Below, in pieces: positions 1 to 60,040 of a stretch of 64,000 bases of DNA; within the stretch, counting starts at the first letter, position 1, and each line of letters begins with the position of its first letter. The notes under the pieces are model-generated. The model saw nothing but the letters and a program-made list of their open reading frames with translations, did no database searches and was not told the DNA's origin. A program made the position numbers and the translations under genes. The stretch lies in the NCBI GenBank assembly GCA_964036195.1, contig OZ038455.1, positions 16,695,855 to 16,759,854 on the forward strand, written 5' to 3'. The stretch is from Sphaerolaimus hirsutus (lineage: Eukaryota; Nematoda; Chromadorea; Monhysterida; Sphaerolaimidae).

Positions 1-3000
1 GCGATTAGTCAAAAGCAGCCCTCACAACCTGCTGCTGACTATCGCAAGCCGAAATTCGAGTGCTTGTTCTGCGGCATCAAAGAGCACTACACAACCGACT
101 GCCCTCAATACGTCACACCGAGAGAGCGCACTGAACGGTTGCGAGCTTTGGGCGATGTGTGCACGCGCTGCACGCGCAGAGGCCATCAAGCGGCACAGTG
201 CACTCAACAACTGAGTTGCTACTACTGTCGCCAGATTGGTCAGCATCACGGGGCGTTCTGTCCTACCAGACAGGCACCCGCCAGGCGTCAGGTAAACAAT
301 TCACAAAATAAAGCCTTTGTCAAAGCAACGAGCGCTAATTTTGTCAACGCTCAGGTAATCACAACGGGCGCGGCGTCGTCACATGCACCGCCATCGTATC
401 CGCCTTCACATACGGAACCGATGAGCGTGTGTGTCATCCCACCGGACGAAAACGATTTCCGGTGGAGACAGAATACGCTGTACCAGCTGGACATGGACGG
501 CCCGCTCGACATGGGCGAATGGCCGAGGCCCGCTAACGCACAACAGGCGAAAGCTCAGGAGGAAGCCCGCATATATCACAGCGAAAACGAGCTGTGGACA
601 ACGCTCCGTGCCAACCTCATCCAGGAAGGCACAGATATGGAGAATGTCGAGGCCAAAATCCGCGGCTTCCAGCAGAAACGGTACGAGGTGTACCCACACC
701 TCAACCCGAATCAAATGTCATCGTCGGTGCCACTTCAACCTAGTCACAGGCCCACGGTGGAGGTGCTGAGCGCACAGGCGGGTTACGGTAACCCCAACCC
801 CGCTACCAGGCAGCAGGCCGAACAAGAATGTGAGTTCGATTTTGCACCTATTGTTCGTTTGCAAGTGGCCCAGGCTTCATTAATTAATAAAGACGCTGAA
901 TTAAATAGAGTCACAGACCCTTTGTTAATATTCTTTGACACTGGATGCGAATATTCATACATTAAAGCATCCGTGGCAAATGAGTATAACTTTGAAAACA
1001 AAGGAGATGTTGTTCTTCAAATGAACGTGTTTGCGACAAAAACGCCCGTCACAGTCAATACGTTTTTGGTCGAGGCTGTCATGCCTATTTACAAACACGT
1101 CGACAATAAGGGCAATATGTTACAAATTCCGCTCACTTTACGTGCAGTGGATAATTTGGCAACATATGCATGCCCACCTCCTTTGTCACAAGATGATAAA
1201 ACAGTCATTTATATTGTGTACGGTGAACATGCACAAGAACAATTCGCGGAACCGCTTGAATTGACCGAAATGACTGATGAGTTTTGTCACAAACTATGTC
1301 AACCAGATGTAGTCATTGGTCAAGACTATTATTGGAAGTTCGACATTCGACCAACAGAAATCGAACTCCCATCTGGATTGATCATAGTCGAATCAATACT
1401 TGGATTGATGCTTGGCGGAAATGCGTCATCACAATCATTTGTCACAACACCCGACATTTCACCACATCAATTCATGGTTTCATGCAGTTCACATGCTTCA
1501 TCAGCTGTTGCTGTTGGCCAAGAGACATTATTTCAATTTCACAGTCTCGAGTCAATAGGTATCACAGACGATCCCTTATCACATGATGACGACATAGCTG
1601 AACAGTTAATTCTGGAATCAATTACTCTCGATCCAGAAACTGGTCGCTATAGCGTGGATTGGCCATTCAAATCAACAATTCAAGAATTGCCAACCAACAA
1701 TGCAGAAGCATTTCGTCGCTTTCTGTCATTGTTGAAACGGTTTCGAAAAGATCCCGATTTATTCGCTACATACGCGAAAGTCATCTCAGATCAACTTCAC
1801 AAGGGTGTCATAGAACCCGTCTATGGTTCACAAGATGGTTTGCAAGAACACATCTTACCTCACCAACCTGTCCTCACACCTGGCAGATCGACAACATGTC
1901 GAATAGTGTATGATGGTTCTGCAGGCAAGCCAAGTCTCAATAATTGCTTATTCCGAGGCCCAGTTCTCACACCACTGGCGCTCGGATTAATGCTTCGCTT
2001 CAGAGCCGGAAAAGTGGTGTTATTAGCAGATATTGAAAAAGCATTTTTACAAATTGCTCTTCACTCAAAATCACGCGCCTTCACAAAATTTTACTGGCTG
2101 CGTGATGACACCATTCCATCTCATGAAGACAATATTCAAATGATGCAATTCACAAGGGTGCTGTTTGGTCTCACATGCAGTCCATCCATTTTGTCAACTG
2201 TCATCAAATATCACTTAGAAGAAGAATTAGCTCACATGCATCCCGCTGAGACCAATGAACGAATGAAACTGGAGCTGTTGCTCAACAGCATTTACGTTGA
2301 TAATTTAGTTATCAGCGTAGATGACGACAAATATGCAATACAGCTCTATCGTCTAATTAAAGCTGTTTTTGCCAGAGCAAATTTCAACATGCGCGAATGG
2401 ATGACAAATTCGCCAATGGTCTCGGAAAAAATCAAACCCGATGACCTCAACCCGAAAAAATCACAATATATCAAAGTAATGGGTCTCGTTTACGATCACA
2501 TTGAAGACACCATTGCGGTGCCAGCTCCCAAGAAAGATTTCACGCTCATTGTCACAGCCACTCGCCGCAATTTAAATAAATTGCTGGCTTCAACATACGA
2601 TCCTATTGGCGTCACAGCACCCGCGTTATTTCGGTTAAAATTTCGCGTGTCACAAATAATTCAAAGGTGCAATATCACAACCTGGGATGAACTCATCGAA
2701 GACCCAGAGGCGGATGACTTATTGGACGATTTAAAAAGACATCTCTCGTCCATAAGTCAAATCAAATTCCCACGCTCATTTCACTCTTTTGGCATCGATG
2801 TCAAAGCTGTCACAAGGCCATTAGAATTACATGTGTTTTGTGATGCCTCAAAAGATGGATACGCCGTTTGCGCTTATTTGCGTCAACAAGCGATTTCACC
2901 TGACGAATACGGTTATGAAGATGACCGGTATTTTAGTGGTTTTCTCACAGCTCGCACAAAACTAGCCCCACTTCCGTCAAAACAAGGTCAACCCCTCACA

Positions 3001-5469
3001 ATCACACGCTTGGAATTGCTAGGTGTCACAATTGGTGCACAGCTCATCGATTATTTACATCATGAACTCGTTGAGCTGGGTGGATGGAAAATTCACAGTA
3101 ATTTCCTCTGGACCGATAGTACAGTTGTCATCGGCTGGCTATATACTGCAAAGCCGCTGGCTACTTTTGTCAACAATCGGGTCACAAAAATCCACTCACT
3201 AATGTCAAAGCATTGCATTCAAATTTGCAAGGTTGCTACAAAAGACAACCCAGCCGACATCGCGTCACGGGGTTGTACTTTTGATCAACTGATGATCGAA
3301 ACAATGTGGTTCACCGGACCCACATTTTTAGCTGAACCTCTCACATCAACCATGCTTGACATTTCGCCATATCAAGCGCAACCTGTCACCGAAGAGCTTG
3401 CGAAAGGCGACATTCACATCAGTCGACCTTTATATGCTGGAGCAGTAACTTCACAGCCCGTTTCACAGCCTGATTCACAACCAGCTAATGCTCTTGCACA
3501 GCAAGTACCTGTCAACTTGGACCCCAATTTGTCACAAAATGTCACTCCTCAAAATCCGTTTGTCGAAAGTCGACAACGTCACATCCCTTCAAATCCATTC
3601 GAAATCGACATTCGACGATTTTCAACACTGTCAAAATTGTTGCGTACTGTCGTATATCTACTTCGTGTCAAAACATATTGGCTAAATCGCTCCATGCATA
3701 AAGCTGCAAAGCGCGAAAGCGAATATTTATCAAAACCCATCACACAAGCTGATTTGAACGAAGCATTTAGACATGTATTGCGCATTTCACAGGCAGAAGA
3801 ATGTGCCAGTTGCATTTCACAAGCGCAACTTGGCAAACACCACATGCTCAAATGGGACGCGTGGAATAATTTATTATATTGTGTCACGCGTGTGTCTCAC
3901 AAAGAACACCGAAACCCTTCATTGTTTTACTACCTGCCAAAGACTGGGTGGTTAACAACGCTAGTGGTTACTCATTTTCATGAGCTTGCTGGTCACAGTG
4001 GCATGCTTCACACTTTAGCAGATTTACGCGAACACTGCTGGTTGTCAAGCGCCAAGCAGGTAGTTGCAAAAATTTTGCGAAAATGTGTCACATGCCGCAA
4101 AGCGGAAGGAGGTCCATTCACATTACCTGATTTTCACACATTACCTGTCACTCGAACTCAATCACAAATCAAGCCATTTCAACATATTGGCATTGATTAT
4201 ATGGGACCGTTAGTTTATTCACAGAACGGAACCCGTCACAGTCAACACATTTTGTTGCTAACATGCTTCAGTACACGCGCCATTCATTTAGAGTCAACTA
4301 ATAGTGTCTTGACAGCCGACACAATTATGGCTCTAAATCGTTTTATTTCACGTCGAGGCATGCCGGACACAATTTGGTCCGACAATGCCCCAGCATTCAA
4401 AAATTGCGTCAAAATGCTACCGGACGTAAAATGGCATTTTATCACAGCCAATAGTCCTTGGCAGGGCGGCGTGTACGAACGCATGGTAGGTTTAGTCAAA
4501 CGCTTGCTCAAAAAAGCATGCGGACGACGTTGTCTCACATGGCATGAATTTCTCACAGTCATGCTTGACGTCGAATTCTCCGTCAATACGCGACCATTGT
4601 CATACTTGTCAAACATAGACATTGGTGCAGCGATACTGCGCCCAATACATTTTCTTTGGGGCACCCCACCACCATGTTACATGGATGAAAAACGTGAGTT
4701 GGAACTCGATTCCACCACGATTGAACCCATGCGAAAAATTCCAAAAGAAGAATGGGAAAGAATGACGGATGGATCTTTCAACCTCACACCCTCACAAATC
4801 GAAAAAACCTACACACTCACACCCCCACGTGTCAATGACGTCAACTGTATCGACGAAATTGCACTCAGCTCTGTGCCTGAAAAGGACAGAGATGACATCA
4901 CATTACTTTGGGACCAAATTCGTCACAATCGTGAAGTGCTTTGGTATGAGTGGTCACGTCAATACATTGACCTACTCAAAGATCGAGCTAAAAATCAACG
5001 CTTGAAAAAAGGCACAATCAACGAAGCTCCCAAACGTGGCCAAGTGGTGTTAATCACAGATGATAAACAACCACGCGGCATGTGGCAAATGGGCCGCGTT
5101 CACGAAATACACGTGTCTAGCGATGGCAAAATACGTGCAGTCACAGTATTATCAAGTAACGGCCGTCGCACACGTAGATCCCCATCTAACCTAGTGCCTC
5201 TTGAAATCGACACAGAGGACGGTGTTGAATATAAAATCGACACTGAGGTAAAAGATGATGATAATTCACAACCTTCACCTGATAAGGGTGATGATTCACA
5301 AACTGATCAATCACATCAACAACCACAATCTTCACAGCGAGATGCAAGACGCGCAAACCCACGTCGAACATGTCGCTACACTGGCACATATTCGTTCTGG
5401 GGAAACGTGTCGCATTTAATGGCGCTCTCGTTGCTAATACAATCAAAATTAGGCAACGCGCTCACATAG
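1..5469 (+). CDS. Gag-Pol polyprotein of BEL/Pao element (3' part)
   Basis: The frame is open from the window edge to the stop at 5467-5469, about 1822 codons; its start lies upstream. It encodes the Gag tail and the replication enzymes. Two CX2CX4HX4C knuckles (nt 61-102, 160-201) and a third, CX2CX5HX4C (217-261), are typical of BEL/Pao Gag. A retropepsin DTG lies at 937-945. RT motif A is LLADIEKAF (about 2020-2045), motif B FGLTCSPS (about 2165), and motif C reads YVDN (2293-2304) rather than YVDD. RNase H carboxylates lie in FCDASKDG, TRLELLG and WTDSTVV (2836-3130). The integrase zinc site H-x-H-C-C spans about 3979-4095; its catalytic triad is D at 4195, D at 4381 and E at 4477. A DUF5641-like domain follows (about 5030-5200). 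The last residues are hydrophobic. There are no frameshifts or stops. Confidence 0.95.
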   Translation, partial: AISQKQPSQPAADYRKPKFECLFCGIKEHYTTDCPQYVTPRERTERLRALGDVCTRCTRRGHQAAQCTQQLSCYYCRQIGQHHGAFCPTRQAPARRQVNNSQNKAFVKATSANFVNAQVITTGAASSHAPPSYPPSHTEPMSVCVIPPDENDFRWRQNTLYQLDMDGPLDMGEWPRPANAQQAKAQEEARIYHSENELWTTLRANLIQEGTDMENVEAKIRGFQQKRYEVYPHLNPNQMSSSVPLQPSHRPTVEVLSAQAGYGNPNPATRQQAEQECEFDFAPIVRLQVAQASLINKDAELNRVTDPLLIFFDTGCEYSYIKASVANEYNFENKGDVVLQMNVFATKTPVTVNTFLVEAVMPIYKHVDNKGNMLQIPLTLRAVDNLATYACPPPLSQDDKTVIYIVYGEHAQEQFAEPLELTEMTDEFCHKLCQPDVVIGQDYYWKFDIRPTEIELPSGLIIVESILGLMLGGNASSQSFVTTPDISPHQFMVSCSSHASSAVAVGQETLFQFHSLESIGITDDPLSHDDDIAEQLILESITLDPETGRYSVDWPFKSTIQELPTNNAEAFRRFLSLLKRFRKDPDLFATYAKVISDQLHKGVIEPVYGSQDGLQEHILPHQPVLTPGRSTTCRIVYDGSAGKPSLNNCLFRGPVLTPLALGLMLRFRAGKVVLLADIEKAFLQIALHSKSRAFTKFYWLRDDTIPSHEDNIQMMQFTRVLFGLTCSPSILSTVIKYHLEEELAHMHPAETNERMKLELLLNSIYVDNLVISVDDDKYAIQLYRLIKAVFARANFNMREWMTNSPMVSEKIKPDDLNPKKSQYIKVMGLVYDHIEDTIAVPAPKKDFTLIVTATRRNLNKLLASTYDPIGVTAPALFRLKFRVSQIIQRCNITTWDELIEDPEADDLLDDLKRHLSSISQIKFPRSFHSFGIDVKAVTRPLELHVFCDASKDGYAVCAYLRQQAISPDEYGYEDDRYFSGFLTARTKLAPLPSKQGQPLTITRLELLGVTIGAQLIDYLHHELVELGGWKIHSNFLWTDSTVVIGWLYTAKPLATFVNNRVTKIHSLMSKHCIQICKVATKDNPADIASRGCTFDQLMIETMWFTGPTFLAEPLTSTMLDISPYQAQPVTEELAKGDIHISRPLYAGAVTSQPVSQPDSQPANALAQQVPVNLDPNLSQNVTPQNPFVESRQRHIPSNPFEIDIRRFSTLSKLLRTVVYLLRVKTYWLNRSMHKAAKRESEYLSKPITQADLNEAFRHVLRISQAEECASCISQAQLGKHHMLKWDAWNNLLYCVTRVSHKEHRNPSLFYYLPKTGWLTTLVVTHFHELAGHSGMLHTLADLREHCWLSSAKQVVAKILRKCVTCRKAEGGPFTLPDFHTLPVTRTQSQIKPFQHIGIDYMGPLVYSQNGTRHSQHILLLTCFSTRAIHLESTNSVLTADTIMALNRFISRRGMPDTIWSDNAPAFKNCVKMLPDVKWHFITANSPWQGGVYERMVGLVKRLLKKACGRRCLTWHEFLTVMLDVEFSVNTRPLSYLSNIDIGAAILRPIHFLWGTPPPCYMDEKRELELDSTTIEPMRKIPKEEWERMTDGSFNLTPSQIEKTYTLTPPRVNDVNCIDEIALSSVPEKDRDDITLLWDQIRHNREVLWYEWSRQYIDLLKDRAKNQRLKKGTINEAPKRGQVVLITDDKQPRGMWQMGRVHEIHVSSDGKIRAVTVLSSNGRRTRRSPSNLVPLEIDTEDGVEYKIDTEVKDDDNSQPSPDKGDDSQTDQSHQQPQSSQRDARRANPRRTCRYTGTYSFWGNVSHLMALSLLIQSKLGNALT

Positions 5470-5507
5470 ACAGATCAATATCACAAAACTTTTAATCTGT
5501 GCCATAA

Positions 5508-8318
5508 ACTAGCACTGGGCACGCAATACAACTTCCGGAAAAAATAACATGTCACTTTCCTCAAGTCACAGCCATAGAGGATATTGTGGTATCCATATGG
5601 ACGTTGCGTGTTCAGCCACAAACAACACCAATTTATAGATGCTTTCAACAAGAGCATACTATAGTCACGTATATGAGCTTGGTGGGCGGAAAAGCTATGC
5701 TGCCACCAGAAATCATTAAAAACCACAGAGTCACAACCTACGATTGCATGATCGCCTACCAAAATAAAACTTGGAAAGGCGAACCTTTAATAAAAATCGG
5801 TCATGCATTGTGGAGCACTAACAAATCACTTCACATCGATTATTGTTACTTTTGTCACAATCTGAGTAACACAGTAATGAACTTTCACATAGAGGAAGGT
5901 GTGGTCGCAAGTCTTGACGGAAAGAAAATAGTTTCCGAAATTCAAGATCTATCACATTGCAACCCACAAGCCGGCTATTGTTATGACAGCGACAATGGCG
6001 TCTCTTTATGGAATGCTACCGCATTTAACAAGCAGTGTGCATTCCAAGAGATTGGTCAATTTGACGCGCAATATTCACAAAATCATTACATAGTGGAAAA
6101 ATTGCAAGCTGCATTTTCTGTCACATGGAGATCACAACAATTCCCAAATAATGCAGAATGCGTGCCAAAAGACGCAAAATATATTGACCAGGGCTCAGCA
6201 TTCATTCAATTTCTTCGATATCAACTTAAGAAATTGAAAAAGCCTCCAACCGAAAAAGCTCCTCTTCATTTCAAACTCGCACCAAATCTTGACGTTGGTG
6301 TATTTCACTTACTCACAGCTCGTCAACAATATGAAGTTGACAAAATTGCACATCTAGAACAAAAACAATTTGGATCTATCTGGCAACAATTATGTCACAT
6401 CCGACAAACCCAACTAGATATAATTCATGCAATTGTCACATTCAATCCCACACTTGGCTTGCGAGCATTGCTAGGACGTCAAAATCTCTACGCTGAATGG
6501 CATGGAGATATATTAATGTTCTGGGATTGTAAACCAGTCACAGCAGAAATTATTTATTTTCAACACGAATATAACAATACTTGTTATAAATTTCTGCCGG
6601 TCAAAGTCACAAATCACCCACATATTATGTTCGTTGCTCCTGGCACCAATGATCTGATCACACATTCACCAATAGATCATTGTCTCATGAAAGATCACAA
6701 ATATTATCAATTAAATGATAATTCATGGGCCAACGAAAACGGACCAACGAATTTGCACGTCACAAAACTCCCAATCGAATTAATTTGGGCTGGCTCGTGG
6801 AAACCATTCACACTAAATGTTTCCGGGTCACCAGGTGTAAGCATGACTGATATTGCATTCAGTATCATGGCTGCACATCATCACTTTCAAAATTTGCAAC
6901 GACTCGAACAACAAGTCACACGTTCGGTCGATTATATTGCAACAAAGTCCAACGATCCTGAAGCAGTGCAAGCATGTATTGCTGGCATAGGCCAAGGGGT
7001 TGGCGCATATTTTGAAGGTGTAGGAAAAGAATTGGGTCACATTATTCACGGTAGTGTCACAGGTGGTGTGTCTGCATTAGATACGTTACTTACTGGGCCA
7101 CTTCAAACAGCTGTGAACATTATACTCATCATTATCACAATTGCTTGTATTGGGTATATTGGTTATGTTTACATGCAGTGGCGGCTCGTAACCGGCAGGG
7201 GTATGCTGCCAGACATCAAGGGCTTTTTCCGAAGAAAGGGCAGAAAGGACAGAAACCCAAACAAATGGGAGCCCCGCCCGTTCAACAAGGAAAAATCGGT
7301 AAGCGACGGCGACGTAACCGCCAGAAGAAGCCGACAAGCGGTTTCAACAAACCCGCTTTGTCAAATCAAACCGTCACACAATCGTCACAGTCGTCAAGTT
7401 CGTCACAGTTACCTTCAAAGTTTGTCACACCCCTCAAACGAGTTTCTCCATTCAAACGGCTTTCAGGACGCACGGTACAGCCTAGATCGGATCCCCCGAT
7501 CGGTTATAGTACCGAACGCGCCGAGGAAATCGAAATGGAGACGGGGGCGTGCCGGGTCACAAAACCTGTACCCTCCTGCGAGTCACAACCGCAGAGCTCG
7601 TCACCAAACGCCAGACTCACAGTCACCGAGCCTGTCACAACAGAAGTCACAATGGAAGACGCGATCCCTGACCGCGAGCCCTTGCAAAAGCGACTCAAGA
7701 GATTCGCTGGAGTCGCAGGGCTCCCAGGTGAGCAGAAATTGTCACACCAAACATTTTCCTTTATACCCCAAACTTTTCACAAATTCAATAACATCAATAA
7801 AAAACTGGTCAAATCAAAAGTTAAACGATCTAAAAAGATCTGTGACCTTCCTCAAACAAACACCTTCACAGTCCGACATAGAAATCGGAGAGATGGAAGA
7901 AAGTCACGATCAAGATCTAGATCCCCCTCCGTACCATTTGACCAATTCAACTCAATCACTTCACAGTGTACGACCTCATTCACAACCTCCCATGTCCCCT
8001 TGCTATCAAGCCAACCGCTTGCAGCATCGGAGCAATGGCAGCCCACCGAGCCGTCGAAGACGATCGTCGACGAGACCGACGCGCTCCGACAAGCCTTCGA
8101 GAGGCTCGCCGAGGAATCGGAGAAGCTCCCCAACTGGCCGGGAAGACCAGCGGGGGCCCCAGAAGACCAGGCGCCCGGACACGGGGAAGGCAGCCAGCCT
8201 GAGGAGGATGCCGTCGAACCCATGGACGAGCATCATGAGGAGGGCCGGGAAAATGCCGGTGTCGAAGACGCCGACGATCTGCTACCACAGGAGTGATGAA
8301 AGTATCACAGGCGTTTGA
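5508..8318 (+). CDS. Env-like fusion glycoprotein
   Basis: The frame opens after a stop at 5505-5507, 36 bases beyond the pol stop. Its first in-frame ATG is only at about 5671, inside the apparent ectodomain, so a spliced leader exon probably supplies the start and signal peptide. The ectodomain has many cysteines and N-glycosylation sequons. A block with LGR, YAEWHGD and C-KPV (about 6470-6540) and a glycine-rich pre-membrane stretch with GAYFEGVGKELG (about 6990-7040) resemble the layout of class III fusion proteins of the herpesvirus gB/chuvirus type; that assignment is inferred by eye. One transmembrane helix lies at about 7110-7185. The roughly 375-residue cytoplasmic tail is unusually long, basic and Ser/Pro-rich, and carries a PPPY motif (7923-7934), the class that recruits Nedd4-type ubiquitin ligases. 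A second frame overlaps the whole tail. Confidence 0.85.
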   Translation, partial: TSTGHAIQLPEKITCHFPQVTAIEDIVVSIWTLRVQPQTTPIYRCFQQEHTIVTYMSLVGGKAMLPPEIIKNHRVTTYDCMIAYQNKTWKGEPLIKIGHALWSTNKSLHIDYCYFCHNLSNTVMNFHIEEGVVASLDGKKIVSEIQDLSHCNPQAGYCYDSDNGVSLWNATAFNKQCAFQEIGQFDAQYSQNHYIVEKLQAAFSVTWRSQQFPNNAECVPKDAKYIDQGSAFIQFLRYQLKKLKKPPTEKAPLHFKLAPNLDVGVFHLLTARQQYEVDKIAHLEQKQFGSIWQQLCHIRQTQLDIIHAIVTFNPTLGLRALLGRQNLYAEWHGDILMFWDCKPVTAEIIYFQHEYNNTCYKFLPVKVTNHPHIMFVAPGTNDLITHSPIDHCLMKDHKYYQLNDNSWANENGPTNLHVTKLPIELIWAGSWKPFTLNVSGSPGVSMTDIAFSIMAAHHHFQNLQRLEQQVTRSVDYIATKSNDPEAVQACIAGIGQGVGAYFEGVGKELGHIIHGSVTGGVSALDTLLTGPLQTAVNIILIIITIACIGYIGYVYMQWRLVTGRGMLPDIKGFFRRKGRKDRNPNKWEPRPFNKEKSVSDGDVTARRSRQAVSTNPLCQIKPSHNRHSRQVRHSYLQSLSHPSNEFLHSNGFQDARYSLDRIPRSVIVPNAPRKSKWRRGRAGSQNLYPPASHNRRARHQTPDSQSPSLSQQKSQWKTRSLTASPCKSDSRDSLESQGSQVSRNCHTKHFPLYPKLFTNSITSIKNWSNQKLNDLKRSVTFLKQTPSQSDIEIGEMEESHDQDLDPPPYHLTNSTQSLHSVRPHSQPPMSPCYQANRLQHRSNGSPPSRRRRSSTRPTRSDKPSRGSPRNRRSSPTGREDQRGPQKTRRPDTGKAASLRRMPSNPWTSIMRRAGKMPVSKTPTICYHRSDESITGV
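7265..8296 (+). CDS. Overlapping accessory ORF beneath the Env tail, ends DLLPQE
   Basis: A second frame, open from about 7145, has its first ATG at 7265 and stops at 8294-8296, 22 bases before the Env stop. From the ATG it encodes about 343 residues. Early on it has an arginine-rich patch (GKRRRRNRQKK), later a basic stretch (KSKVKRSKK), an RS-rich stretch (about nt 7890-7920) and an acidic C-terminus ending ADDLLPQE. Upstream of the ATG the frame runs back through a CAG/TGGCG junction at about 7177, which looks like a splice acceptor. The related element at 58-60 kb has an equivalent frame at the same place with the same last six residues. By analogy with retroviral regulatory genes whose exons overlap env, it may be a spliced RNA-binding regulator; that is inference. 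I recognise no family. Confidence 0.6.
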   Translation: MGAPPVQQGKIGKRRRRNRQKKPTSGFNKPALSNQTVTQSSQSSSSSQLPSKFVTPLKRVSPFKRLSGRTVQPRSDPPIGYSTERAEEIEMETGACRVTKPVPSCESQPQSSSPNARLTVTEPVTTEVTMEDAIPDREPLQKRLKRFAGVAGLPGEQKLSHQTFSFIPQTFHKFNNINKKLVKSKVKRSKKICDLPQTNTFTVRHRNRRDGRKSRSRSRSPSVPFDQFNSITSQCTTSFTTSHVPLLSSQPLAASEQWQPTEPSKTIVDETDALRQAFERLAEESEKLPNWPGRPAGAPEDQAPGHGEGSQPEEDAVEPMDEHHEEGRENAGVEDADDLLPQE

Positions 8319-8384
8319 TTTTGATTGTTTCACATCAATTTGCCGAGATTGGCTGAGATAAAATTAAATTAAATTTAATTTTTA

Positions 8385-8399
8385 TTCTAGTTTCGGGAG
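8385..8399 (+). promoter_or_regulatory. Polypurine tract before the 3' LTR
   Basis: A short purine-rich run ending CGGGAG directly precedes TGTG at 8400. The second element shows GGGGAG directly before TGTG at the matching place, which supports this as the plus-strand primer and fixes the LTR start. It is short and imperfect. Confidence 0.55.
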
Positions 8400-9499
8400 T
8401 GTGTAACATTATCGTAAAATGTAAAATCTTTAATATTTAAGTTGACGTTCTTATGTTCGCTTTTATATTTAATCAATTCAATTCAGTATGATTCCATTTT
8501 TATTCACATTCCATTTCTTAACATCTTCACATTCGCCATTTAATATCTCAAGCGATGTTGTTTACAACGTGCGCTTCACATCGCTCACATATTTAGATCT
8601 TAGTCATTGCTCACATTCCGCCACATTTCCTTGACAAGCAGCACGCAAATACGCCGTCATGTTTATGTTAAGCGGCGGGCCCGCCCCGAGTGGGGGGCCG
8701 GGCCCGCGCGCCATTTCAAATGCTGTCTGGCTTGTCTCACATTTTCACTATCTTGCCAGTTTAGCTCGCTTTTCATCGGAGAAGCGAGCGGGCAAGGATT
8801 GAACTTTCACAATTGGAAATGTTGGGTAAAAATCGGAGATTAGAGCCGACCGATTGGCGCCAAACAAATCGCCATCGGTCTGGCCCTTAAAAGCCGATTT
8901 CACAGCTAAAATCGGCAGTGTTTGCAACCTCGTCAACTTCACACGAATCTCTTCCTAGGATCTAAATAAGCGCCGTAGTCACTTTATTAAGTCGCTTGTT
9001 TTTGGTGCTAAGTTTCACGCTTGGTGCTTTAAGTCACCTCAGTGCTTTATTTCACACCAGCGCTGTTTTGAGGTGCTTTATTCACAACCGCGCCACTTAA
9101 TTGTCGCCTTTTGTCGTAATTAAGTGCCCTCTTTAAATTGCCTTATTTCTCCGGTAATTAGAGCTTCTTTTACGTTTTATTTAAGTAATTAATTTAGTTG
9201 TAAATTAATTCCTTTGTTTACGTATATTTTTATATATATTTTATTTACATTTATTTCTTTGTATTTAATTGTCTAAATAAAAACGTTCGTCAAAACCTTT
9301 GGTAAACAATCTAAATTTGCTTCACACTAACTCACGTCAATTCACTTCAACTCAACTAATCACATTTGATAAAATAACGGAACGTCAACTAGAGACGACG
9401 CTTCACGTCAACTTTCACTTGTTCACATTTGTCCTCTTCCTCGGTTAGGAATAGGAGCTGGTTCACAAGTCACTTCAACAAGTTCCGTATTATTTTACA
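8400..9499 (+). repeat. 3' LTR of BEL/Pao element (~1.1 kb)
   Basis: Begins TGTGTAACATT after the purine tract and ends ATTATTTTACA. The ends are near inverted repeats of each other (TGTAAC.. against ..TTTACA). A GC-rich block (about 8675-8715) may include promoter sequence, and the LTR carries AATAAA near its 3' end. About fifteen TCACA pentamers continue through it. The 5' LTR is not in the window, so the limits come from the termini, the second element and the flank. Confidence 0.75.
9276..9281 (+). promoter_or_regulatory. Polyadenylation signal AATAAA in LTR
   Basis: AATAAA about 220 bases before the LTR end, just after a TATA-rich stretch (about 9219-9250). It is a plausible 3' end signal for the genomic transcript. 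Confidence 0.45.
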
Positions 9500-9699
9500 C
9501 CATCTACTTACCTACTTATATAAGTATATAGAGTCTTATAAAAAGCAGTTTTTGTTGTGACATCTGTGTTAGGTATCTACAAACAACAATTTAGTACTGG
9601 GATATTGAAAAATTTCTGGCAGAATAATACACCCCCCTCGAAATACCCACCCTCGTTTAACCCCCCCCCCCAAGTTTCCACTCTGAAAAAATAATACGG
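9500..9699. mobile_element. CCGTATTTC/poly-C MITE, right part
   Basis: The right-hand remainder of a TA-flanked MITE (C-runs, TCGAAATACCC, ending AATACGG before TA at 9700). The same DNA occurs uninterrupted at about 37150-37339, so the retroelement inserted into this MITE; its left part lies left of the window. Confidence 0.6.
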
Positions 9700-44749: not shown

Positions 44750-45390
44750 GGCTAGTTACACAGGTCCCGGCCGGGGACCGGGACCCGGCAAAAAATAAAA
44801 AAATACAAAAATTAAAAATTGGCGTGTATAGGTTGTTTGCATGTTAATTAGGTGAATCATCACCAAATTAGCATGCACAAAATTTTTGCAAGACGGTTAC
44901 ACCTGCCAATGCATATTTTTTTGGGCAGGTGTATAAAATGTTGCGATTCAACTCAAATTTGGCATGCGTGTACTCCTTCGTTTAGTGAGTACACATGCCA
45001 AATTTCAGCTCCGGGCGATTACCGGTTTTGTTTTAATTTATACTTTAAATTTTTTCGATCACTATATTTTTGTATAGTGATCGAAATTTTGCCGGGGTCC
45101 GGTCCCCGGCAATTTTGAAATGGCCCCGACCGGGGTCAAACGTCCCCGGTGTGGAACTTTTTTTTTCAGTAAACAAATGATTTTGGTCCCCGACCGGGGT
45201 CGTTTGGCCCCGGTACCACACAAAAATTTGTGGTACTTTTTGGGACTTTGTGGTAATTGTCCCCGGTCGGGGCCAAACGACCCCGATGAGAAAAAATATT
45301 TTTTCAGTAAGTATTTTTTGTGATTTCACTGAAATATGCATGGTCGGGCTGAAAAGTCCCTGGACAGTGCTCGCCATTCGCGCTAGGGGT
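44750..45390. mobile_element. CCGG-family half-element, left edge of palindrome
   Basis: GGCTAGTTACACAGG with GTCCCGGCCGGGGACC words, GGTTGTTTGCATGTTAATTA and GGCATGCGTGTACTCC segments as in 11885-12605. Mirrored at 55140-55785. Confidence 0.7.
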
Positions 45391-45439
45391 AAGCTACAGT
45401 CATAAAATTCTAAAACGTATACATATCAGGTGTTTTGAG

Positions 45440-54372: not shown

Positions 54373-55785
54373 GCAGCTGATAATCAGAACATAAGTATGG
54401 AAGCTCCAGGTGATTCTGATCATTTTAAGTGTTTATTGGTGAAAATCGGCTGAGAAATAGCTGAGATATTGAGTTCTGAAATTGCATGCGTTTTCATTCA
54501 ACTGGACCAAATCAGCATATGAAATTTACACATCACTAATCCGACCACAACAATTGAATCTGCATGCTGTCCTGATCATTTTAATCGTCAACCGCTCATA
54601 AACAGCCCATAATGACCACCTTATTAAGCTTCAAAATCAATGTCCAGATAAGGCATACAAAATGAACACCTTGAATAGACGCCCTAATCTCAGGACTGGG
54701 GGATTATTTGAGCAACCAAAAATATTTGGTCACAACACAAATGAAATTTAATGTATATAATTATTTACTGCACATTTCAAAACAACATTAAAATCACTGC
54801 AATACAACATGATCTCAGATGATCACCAAAACATCCATCACAGTTCACACGTTTCTTGCACATCACCCTGATTTGCATATTAACTTTACCTTAATAGCAA
54901 TGATGTTGATAAACGTGTTGAATACTATCAGCACATTGCCAACACACTGGCTTACACTGGCCAAAGTTTCATGATCACAACTTAAAGCAGCGTTGAGATA
55001 GAGCACCATGTGTACATCAGTACAAAATGACCGAAATTGTAACCCCCACAGTTCCGCAGTGGGTGGAGCTAGAGGGGTGAAACTTTGGGTGAAAACTCTA
55101 AACACCTGATATGTATACGTTTTAGAATTTTATGACTGTAGCTTACCCCTAGCGCGAATGGCGAGCACTGTCCAGGGACTTTTCAGCCCGACCATGCATA
55201 TTTCGGTGAAATCACAAAAAATACTTACTGAAAAAATATTTTTTCTCATCGGGGCTGTTTGGCCCCGACCGGGGACAATTACCACAAAGTCCCAAAAAGT
55301 ACCACAAATTTTTGTGTGGTACCGGGGCCAAACGACCCCGGTCGGGGACCAAAACCATTTGTTTACTGAAAAAAAAAGTTCCTCACCGGGGACGTTCGAC
55401 CCCGGTCGGGGCCATTTCAAAATTGCCGGGGACCGGACCCCGGCAAAATTTCGATCACTATACAAAAATATAGTGATCGAAAAAAATTAGAGTATAAATT
55501 TAAAAAAACCCGGTAACCACCCGGAGCTAAAATTTGGCATGCGTACTCACTAAACGAAGGAGTACACGCATGCCAAATTTGAGTTGAATTGCAACATTTT
55601 ATACACCTGCCCAAAAAAATATGCATTGGCAGGTGTAACCGTCTTGCAAAAATTTGGTGCATGCTAATTTGGTGATGATTCACCTAATTAACATGCAAAC
55701 AACCTATACACACCAATTTTTAATTGTTGTATTTTTTTATTTTTTGCCGGGTCCCGGTCCCCGGCCGGGACCTGTGTAACTAGCC

Positions 55786-58016: not shown

Positions 58017-58739
58017 TCACTCTTGGGGCAACAAGTCCTCTGGATTATCTTGTTCCTCATATTCCATCATCACACTTTCGAATTCTGACTCTTTGACGGG
58101 TGAGGTTCCGATGTCACAGGTTCTCTGCATGTCTGTTGACGCATCTGCATAGACAACGGGAACGCTGGAACTGGGGCCAGCTTCTGAAATGGTTGAAGTG
58201 GGTTGAGTTCGATGGAATGGTGATCGATTGATAGGGTTGACAAGTTTTGATCGTTTTTTCTTGAATTTGAGAGGTTGAACCTTACTCTTTGTTTCATTTG
58301 ATTCAGTTGATTGGTACACCAACTCTTGACCGAATGTAGCGACTGAGTTGACGGAGCAGGTTTCAGGACTAGAATTTTTGGTTTTTTGTTGATTAGTTCT
58401 AGGTCCAAAGATTCTATCGAATCTTGTTTTCCAAGATTCGCGCTCAAGGGTGATTTTGATAGTGTGGGGAGGGTGTTCCGCCATATCATATTTTGGGGTT
58501 TCACCCTTTTGCTCAGGGGTCTCAGAGGCGACATTGGTTGTGGTGAGTTGATTAGGGAGAGAGTTGAGTTGTGAGGTGATTGTTGAGTTGGGGTCGAATG
58601 ACAATCGATTTGCGAGTTCTCTATTTTTTGTCCCGAGCTTAGCTTTGAGACGTTTAAGCTTTCTCTTACCCGCTTTGTTGAAGGCTTGAGGTTGGTGGCG
58701 CCTCCGCGGCTGCACAGTTGACCAATCGTCGCTCGCCAC
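58017..58739 (-). CDS. Overlapping accessory ORF beneath the Env tail, ends DLLPQE
   Basis: 240 codons in the alternative frame, counted from a GTG at the conserved CAG/TGGCG junction; the frame is open further upstream. It has a lysine/arginine patch (GKRKLKRLKAKL), a second basic stretch (KFKKKRSKL) and an acidic end PEDLLPQE, in the same order as the frame at 7265-8296. It stops 53 bases beyond the Env stop. Length differs (240 against about 343 codons), mainly in the middle. A spliced regulator is the favoured guess; no family is recognised. Confidence 0.6.
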   Translation of the reverse strand: MASDDWSTVQPRRRHQPQAFNKAGKRKLKRLKAKLGTKNRELANRLSFDPNSTITSQLNSLPNQLTTTNVASETPEQKGETPKYDMAEHPPHTIKITLERESWKTRFDRIFGPRTNQQKTKNSSPETCSVNSVATFGQELVYQSTESNETKSKVQPLKFKKKRSKLVNPINRSPFHRTQPTSTISEAGPSSSVPVVYADASTDMQRTCDIGTSPVKESEFESVMMEYEEQDNPEDLLPQE

Positions 58740-60040
58740 TGCATATACAGGTATAAAATATAAATTAGGAACCCAATGGAGGCGACAATAATAATAATGT
58801 TGAAAATGGTTTGCAAGGGCCCAGTCAAAAGTGAATCTAATGCGCTGGCGCCCCCTACTGACACTCCCTCAATTAAATGTCCAAGTTCTTTGCCGACCCC
58901 CTCAAAATAGGCGCCAGCACCTTGGCCTAACCCAGCAATAAATGATTTTATTGCTTCTGGGTCATTTGACATAGTTGACAAAAATTCAGTTGAGCGTCCT
59001 ACTTGATTTTCGAGTTGATGTAATCGTTGAAAATGGTGATGTGATGCAGTTAAGCTAAATGCTATGTCTGTCATACTTTTACCAGGAGCACTTGACACAT
59101 TCAACACGAATGGTTGCCAAGTCCCTTTCCAAATAAGTTCCACGGGAATTTCGGTAATGTGTAGATTTATTTTTCCATTCTCATTCGCCCAGGACCCATC
59201 ATTTAATTGGTAATATTTATGATCCTTAAATTGGCAATTATCCAGAGGCGAATGAGTAATGAGATCTTTAGTACCCGGTGAAACGAATAAGATGTGAGGA
59301 TGATTTTTTATTTGAATTGGCAAGAATTTATAGCAAGTGCCATTGAATTGATGAGAAAAGAAAATTCTAAGAGCTTGAACGGGTTTACACTCCCAGAACA
59401 TCAATACGTCTCCATGCCATTCGGCATACAGATCTTCTCTACCCAACAGGGCCCTCAATCCCAGAGTGGGGTTGAATGTGATGAATTGATTGATTAATTT
59501 TAATTGAGTTTGTCTGATATGACATAGTTGCTGCCATATCATGGCAAATTGTTGACTTTCTAAAAAGGATAGTTGATCAATTGTGAATTGTCTTTGAGAT
59601 GTAAGAAAGTTAGCGAGATCAACTATGCCTTTATGTGTTGAGTTAAACTGGTTAAAAGAATATTGTTGAAAAATAGGATTTTTCACTATTTTCCTTCGCT
59701 TTTTCACTATTTCAATAAAGGTTGACCCCTGATCGGCATATTTAGCCTTTTCTGGCACACAATCTGCATGTTCCGGTCTAGGGTGATGGTAAATAATTGA
59801 AAAAGCAGCTTGAATTGACTCAATTATAAAGTGTTGTTGAGTCATTTTCGCTTGAAATGTGCCAAAGTTGACAAATGCACACTGATGTTGAAAAACGGAT
59901 GCATTCCATAGTGCAACTCCGTTGTTGTAATCAGTACAATAGCCAGCTGCTGGATTGCAGTGAGACAAATCTTGAACCTCTGAAACAAGTTTCAATCCAT
60001 CCAGGCTTGCTTTGCATTTTGCATGATTGTAATTAAAAGT
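58070..60040 (-). pseudogene. Env-like fusion glycoprotein, N-terminally truncated
   Basis: The minus-strand frame is open for about 650 codons without stops and aligns with the Env of the first element from just before SLDG through the tail. Shared landmarks are DLSHCNP-AGYC, LC-IRQTQL, FNPTLGLRALLGR, YAEWHGD, GAYFEGVGKELG, SALDSLLTGPLQT and YMQWR after the single transmembrane helix. About 115 N-terminal residues are missing, with a stop upstream, so it is a truncated gene although the rest looks intact. It lacks the PPPY motif. The tail keeps a weakly conserved K-W-x4-LN-K-V-F segment (about 58300-58370) although a second frame overlaps it. Confidence 0.85.

Follow-up and report, generated by a model that had tools for sequence, protein, structure and literature searches.

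A strand-specific pentamer with clade-specific dialects in BEL/Pao elements of the nematode Sphaerolaimus hirsutus

The window analysed here is a 64,000-nucleotide stretch of the 348-Mb genome of the nematode Sphaerolaimus hirsutus (contig OZ038455.1; G000:C7:16695855-16759854). Its first 9,499 nucleotides (1..9499, +) make up the 3'-terminal three quarters of a BEL/Pao retroelement whose sense strand is saturated with the pentamer TCACA. Recounting gives 127 copies of TCACA and four of the reverse complement TGTGA, which bears out the roughly 125 and four of a preliminary description of this DNA. That description let the saturated stretch begin at position 1, which is only the edge of the window: the element starts 2,788 bp further left (G000:C7:16693067; L001:7168), its 5' part occupies L001:7168-9955, and its total length by coordinates is 12,287 bp. 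The 5' long terminal repeat (LTR; L001:7168-8267) and the 3' LTR (8400..9499, +) are 100% identical over 1,100 bp, and the target-site duplication CCATC (9500..9504, +) flanks the element. Over the full 12,287 bp TCACA occurs 15 + 19 + 127 = 161 times and TGTGA 0 + 0 + 4 = 4 times. All comparisons below come from this one genome, in which families were sampled by short pieces.

The window part of the element opens with a frame at 1..5469 (+; 73 TCACA) that encodes the end of gag with the nucleocapsid, the protease/reverse transcriptase (RT)/RNase H region and the integrase. Pattern matching places three CCHC zinc knuckles of the nucleocapsid, the putative reader of the word, at 61..261 (+), and downstream of these follow an RT stretch (2008..2190, +; PF00078, a weak match below the curated cut-off), the Peptidase_A17 or Pao domain (2560..3120, +; PF05380, E 9.3e-31), the zinc-binding domain of the integrase (3955..4104, +; PF17921) and DUF5641 (4909..5193, +; PF18701). 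The env frame (5508..8318, +) contains 20 TCACA in 5508-7054 and matches a viral fusion glycoprotein (PF24664, Monjiviricetes_fusion) at ~5937-6728 (+). A second open frame, which ends ...DLLPQE, overprints the env tail (7055..8296, +; 16 TCACA), and the 3' LTR holds 15 TCACA and no TGTGA.

The Pao-type peptidase/RNase H region, the gag nucleocapsid and an integrase downstream of the RT are traits of the Belpaoviridae, and the LTR length together with the CCATC duplication fits the 0.2-1.2 kb range of that family (PMC8742986). The total of 12,287 bp exceeds the 4-10 kb given by the International Committee on Taxonomy of Viruses (ICTV), a quoted size range and not a phylogenetic criterion (PMC8742986); the BEL/Pao assignment itself is made by domain content and by similarity to PF05380-bearing proteins. 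In the present copy gag has an in-frame stop (L001:9230-9232) and the env frame differs from the pol frame, but 31 of the 78 scored family copies have env within open frames 3,237-3,249 codons long (hand count). All 78, out of 1,616 candidates, are 99-100% identical, and the family is young and abundant. No relatives were found in viral contigs, a protein database search with the env piece gave no match at E 0.001, and one with the RT piece gave 36 distant proteins.

TCACA is distributed evenly throughout the element. The preliminary description had placed it in gag-pol, env, the overlapping frame and the LTR alike, and the densities agree: 13.4 per kb for the 1-5469 frame, 12.9 for both env and the overlap region, and 13.6 for the LTR. 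Between 1 and 9499 the expectation is 13.1 copies from base composition and 27.8 under a first-order Markov model; within the LTR it is 2.0 (first-order) or 6.3 (second-order), against the 15 present. The leader between the LTR and the start of gag adds four copies in 278 nt (hand count). The abrupt stop given in the preliminary description is real: the last TCACA begins at 9463, shortly before the end of the LTR at 9499. The flanking DNA, where an equal enrichment was looked for, has 1.34 per kb downstream and 1.26 upstream, close to the chromosome background of 1.5 per kb per strand (twenty 10-kb stretches of the same chromosome). No 1-kb background window on either strand (n=720) has more than seven copies, against ~13 per kb throughout the element. 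Many copies of a common motif are spread over the genome RNA, a trait of dispersed packaging signals.

The excess is not a by-product of the encoded proteins. When the coding pieces 1-5466 and 5508-7052 are permuted synonymously, with the protein and the codon counts fixed, 93 TCACA are observed against 33.4 +/- 4.2 (maximum 49 in 2000 permutations), and TCACA ranks first among all 1,024 pentamers. Fixing the codon-junction dinucleotides as well raises the expectation to 55.6 (maximum 66 of 120 permutations; z 9.1), so under either control the word stays far outside the range of the synonymous shuffle that had been suggested as a check. Among six pieces of 358-515 codons from the element TCACA is the top word in five, TGTCA leading in the sixth. 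The occurrence in all three codon phases also holds, with 27/44/22 copies against 17.0/11.7/5.3 expected. TCACA fills 93 of the 124 slots that the protein permits (73/99 in the first frame and 20/25 in env; 32.7 expected), a fraction to be read as an upper view since the permitted slots include those that the word itself creates, a weakness from which the permutation tests are free. Amino-acid preference had already been judged inadequate in the preliminary description, and this is confirmed, since the excess survives when protein and codon counts are kept constant and is seen in three phases and in the LTR. As the word is sense-only, present in all codon phases as well as in the leader and LTR, and exceeds both the synonymous and the junction-dinucleotide controls, an RNA-level signal is well supported, and TCACA is very probably under selection at the level of the RNA.

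A related element in the same window carries a different word. The fragment at 58017..60040 (-), comprising env plus the overlapping frame, has an env 60.5% identical to that of the TCACA element, yet its top pentamer is TCAAC (27 vs 4.4 expected), with only five TCACA. A genome search with this sister env (106 scored of 1,537 candidates) finds eight further copies at 73-99% identity, the remaining matches lying at 61%, the level of the TCACA family. From each of the eight 3.5 kb were fetched, and as L025 and L026 are near-identical they represent seven TCAAC families. TCAAC on the sense strand is the top word by the first-order Markov measure in 8/8, with 34-48 copies each against 6.6-8.5 expected and one to five reverse complements. 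Synonymous permutation puts it first in 7/7 long sister pieces (L026 excluded) and in two gag pieces, and with the junction dinucleotides fixed it reaches z 12.5 over four families. The eight copies, two of them near-identical, fill 318 of 496 permitted slots against ~132 expected, and by hand count two sister leaders hold four TCAAC in 155 nt and two in 129 nt. TCACA stays near expectation in the sisters (62 vs ~55 summed over eight, 28 vs 34.6 over four). TCAAC was also considered as a second word of the TCACA element, but the excess there is weak (30 vs 24.0, z 2.0) and is not claimed. The word is a clade-specific dialect, TCACA in one clade and TCAAC in the other, within the same genome. 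The related families that the preliminary description had proposed for comparison are thus saturated too, but with another word and at other positions. Beside this, a second frame ending in DLLPQE overlies the env tail in both clades (7055-8296 + and 58017-58868 -) with weak similarity between them, and its product, arginine-rich in the TCACA element, is a possible accessory protein.

The positions of the word turn over. Only one of the 17 aligned env TCACA of the TCACA element is also TCACA in the sister; conversely, 14 of the 16 env TCAAC of the sister can be compared, the other two lying opposite gaps, and at none of these 14 does the TCACA element have either word. Among the seven TCAAC families, which are 65-76% identical at the nucleotide level, TCAAC is retained in 616 of 1,481 comparisons (0.416), against 0.19 for all pentamers, and ranks 13th of 287 frequent words. 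The alignment contains 126 distinct TCAAC positions, 92 of them gap-free in every family, and of these 92 as many as 48 are occupied in a single family and one is common to all seven. As TCAAC is kept above background and yet lost and gained at other places, selection looks as if it acts on the number of words rather than on their position.

More distant BEL/Pao elements show no excess of either pentamer. Of 150 scored genome matches to PF05380 (2,290 candidates) twelve pieces were fetched, which are 30-34% identical to the TCACA element and contain three to six TCACA and two to four TCAAC per 2.3 kb. A weaker excess of CAGA is found instead, this being among the four leading 4-mers in 5/7 tested pieces of the twelve. 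It is the top 4-mer in 4/4 pieces fetched later (z 5.6, 6.0, 4.9 and 5.5), which, judged by location and frame length, represent further regions of the same family groups and not new families. Pooled over four distant-family pieces under the stricter control CAGA reaches z 5.5, and TCAAC and TCACA show no excess there. CAGA was not accepted as a dialect of equal strength: it leads in only 6/10 distant 2,100-nt trims, L044 has no CAGA excess and L038 showed CATCA. One distant group (L034-L039, L049) has CATCA and GTCAA as extra words in the synonymous test. Both TCAAC and CAGA were discovered by scanning, and their confirmation is confined to the later-fetched pieces, eight sister copies and four CAGA pieces respectively.

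Elements outside BEL/Pao were sampled for comparison. Five pieces with PF17919, which we take to be Gypsy-type, show no excess of TCACA, TCAAC or CAGA, and the top word differs in each; CAGAC is the top 5-mer of one (9 vs 2.9). Single Gypsy-type pieces peak with other words at z 5.0-5.2 for 4-mers and 5.4-5.7 for 5-mers, and at z 7.0 for a 6-mer (CATTGC, 8 vs 1.0). Among 18 control open frames of at least 180 codons, two frames of an overlapping region in L021 reach z 12.5 and 9.5, values that by eye stem from repeated peptide stretches, and the other 16 stay at or below 5.9; in two other long open frames, represented by three pieces, no peak exceeds z 4.0. Since controls can reach high values, a single high z in a single piece is no proof, and what carries the argument is that one word recurs over pieces and families. 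In the sampled set such a word excess is restricted to BEL/Pao elements.

It is proposed that the RNA of the element carries TCACA as a dispersed, linear, sense-strand recognition word, which selection would place wherever protein coding and the non-coding regions leave room for it. The likeliest reader is the element's own nucleocapsid, a portion of Gag that bears the three zinc knuckles. By numerous weak contacts on one RNA, Gag could select and package its own RNA in preference to host RNA or the RNA of other families, and reader and word would co-evolve, so that related clades come to differ (TCACA, TCAAC and, more weakly, CAGA). For a reader that would have to differ between clades sharing one cell, the simplest assumption is that the element encodes it, and the different word of the sisters together with the lack of a Gypsy-type excess favours a reader belonging to the element group over a general host process. 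Gag of both clades has three zinc knuckles. In the second of these the histidine is preceded by N in both TCAAC sequences, whereas the TCACA element and the two CAGA-type sequences have G there. Another candidate reader may be the arginine-rich protein that the overprinted frame encodes. The preliminary description had suggested a mark on the element's transcripts for a Gag, accessory or host protein; of this the RNA-level signal is well supported, and the marking for Gag or an accessory protein is what we infer from it. Packaging of its own RNA is the most likely use of the word. As a whole, the proposal of an element-encoded reader that serves own-RNA packaging is given an even chance of being correct. 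A broader version, in which each BEL/Pao clade writes its own word as an RNA address code that a co-evolving nucleocapsid reads to package its own RNA among co-resident families, is put forward tentatively. Under such a code dialect switches would mark changes of reader and keep families apart, amounting to a self/non-self code within one genome.

Several observations weigh against this proposal. The knuckle comparison covers five sequences and is a lead only, L046 having given just two of the three knuckles. The sister word is less sharply defined than TCACA, since in 2,100-nt sister trims TCAA is the top 4-mer in 8/8 but TCAAC the top 5-mer in 5/8, the overlapping TTCAA leading in the other 3/8, and one TCAAC family has a short LTR with, by hand count, no more than two copies in ~373 nt. 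Avoidance of the other clade's word was not found in either clade. TCACA sites are predicted to be unpaired with a probability of 0.373, compared with 0.312 at comparable words (p 0.006), but the gain in accessibility is weak relative to synonymous permutations, both for TCACA (0.376 vs 0.303 +/- 0.040) and for TCAAC (0.354 vs 0.329 +/- 0.022). Presentation in stem-loops was rejected, as the flank-pairing matrix is flat and closing stems match the shuffled null (12 stems of five or more vs 13.1 shuffled, at 125 TCACA sites). The complementary word GTGA seems strongly avoided under plain synonymous permutation (7 vs 20.7; 0 of 1000), but not once junction dinucleotides are kept (7 vs 8.0), and its avoidance was likewise dropped. 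Finally, two dialects in one genome could reflect two host proteins.

Folding was recorded separately. In 300-nt windows compared with dinucleotide shuffles the sense strand has a mean z of -2.59, with 15/20 windows below -2, and the antisense strand -1.57; two 600-nt sense pieces reach -4.9 and -5.5. The region 1-8300 (+) thus folds better than its shuffles, sense over antisense, which points to a possible genome-scale RNA structure. RNA structure as the cause of the word was noted and not used, because the TCAAC families fold only weakly better, at -0.61 to -1.43, and the values of five random genomic stretches, no clean folding control, range from -0.49 to -4.2.

The alternative that best survives is a host RNA-binding protein that reads the words for export of a long unspliced RNA, suppression of splicing, germ-cell localisation or stability. 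UCAC fits the pocket of the RNA recognition motif (RRM) of RBPMS, in whose crystal structure it is bound, and fly CPO and worm MEC-8 share this conserved RRM, according to the account of these targets in PMC4783296. Moreover, TCAG is scarce in 1-9499 (17 vs 44.4 under the first-order Markov model; 17 vs 30.1 with TCACA masked), as if 3' splice sites were avoided. However, RBPMS requires only CAC and other CAC contexts are not enriched in the retroelement: GCAC, ACAC and CCAC reach 0.60, 0.67 and 0.73 of expectation, a baseline raised by TCACA itself, and after masking of TCACA the ratios are 0.99 for GCACA, 1.12 for CCACA and 0.59 for ACACA. That a sister clade within this genome has switched to TCAAC, and that the five Gypsy-type pieces show no excess, is also hard to explain in this way, and a host reader is therefore regarded as possible but rather unlikely.

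A strand-specific mutational or templated process, such as the error spectrum of the element's RT or an editing enzyme, could instead make the word. The independence of codon phase, the LTR copies and the equal density in coding sequence and LTR would suit a blind process, the dialects could track the enzyme, and some one-step neighbours are low when the word is masked (TCAGA 0.24, TCATA 0.44, TCTCA 0.58, TCGCA 0.59, ACACA 0.59). Other neighbours are not low (CCACA 1.12, TTACA 1.12, TCCCA 1.24), and TCACT, TCAAA, TCACG and TCACC are high (1.48-2.18). Sister sequences at the same places are varied, so that no single conversion can yield the word; TCAAC is retained at about twice the rate of pentamers overall (0.416 vs 0.19); and the frames stay open, as in the 31 of 78 scored copies. 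This process, offered as an alternative in the preliminary description, is weakened by the neighbours and the retention and is now judged improbable. If the word helped the element to evade or tolerate host small RNAs, or some other defence that reads sequence, this would accord with a young, high-copy family (78 scored of 1616 at 99-100%) with identical LTRs, but escape predicts avoidance of words rather than enrichment of one, and as neither clade avoids the other's word this explanation is very doubtful. Amino-acid or codon preference alone may be dismissed: TCA, ACA, GTC and CAC codons are common in the element, but the excess persists when protein, codon counts and junction dinucleotides are all kept constant, and it extends to every codon phase and to the LTR.

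Two further features were recorded. A 1,725-codon open frame at L020:4825-9999 matches Retrotrans_gag above its cut-off, has no Pfam polymerase match, and shows PNMA and Monjiviricetes_fusion matches just under their cut-offs. Within the window, near-identical 126-codon open frames at 45045-45425 (-) and 55110-55490 (+) form an inverted repeat pair ~10 kb apart.

Selection of its own RNA by an LTR retroelement is generally attributed to a structured element close to the 5' end of that RNA, with HIV-1 among the examples. No report of a genome-wide, clade-specific word of the present kind was found in the open-access literature. If an element-encoded reader is correct, the co-evolution of word and reader, specificity and cross-packaging become open to sequence comparison and simple binding assays. 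The pattern is also a warning that strong RNA-level selection can act on synonymous sites of mobile elements, with consequences for dating and for studies of codon usage, and it can be detected by a cheap scan of any genome. The ICTV profile of the Belpaoviridae describes their replication as poorly understood and mentions no genome-wide RNA word (PMC8742986).

Each part of the proposal has a counterpart in known systems. The closest in gene content are the glycoprotein-carrying Pao elements of mosquitoes such as 'Anakin', which, in what their description covers, share the Pao peptidase, integrase, LTRs, gag zinc knuckles and a viral fusion glycoprotein as env (PMC7642597). Linear words read by zinc fingers are represented by Gis2p and ZNF9, which bind short linear repeats inside coding sequences, although these are cellular proteins and their repeats are G(A/U)(A/U) (PMC3091301). 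The dispersed packaging signals of MS2 and other viruses resemble TCACA in their many motif copies and in a proposed coat or nucleocapsid reader, but as described there the motifs are presented in stem-loops, whereas the word of the retroelement is linear and has clade dialects (PMC6281560). Such dialects are in turn reminiscent of the DNA uptake sequences of the Neisseriaceae, short self-marking words in many copies whose dialects follow phylogeny; these, however, serve DNA uptake in bacteria, while the word of the retroelement is strand-specific and its reader putative (PMC3630211).

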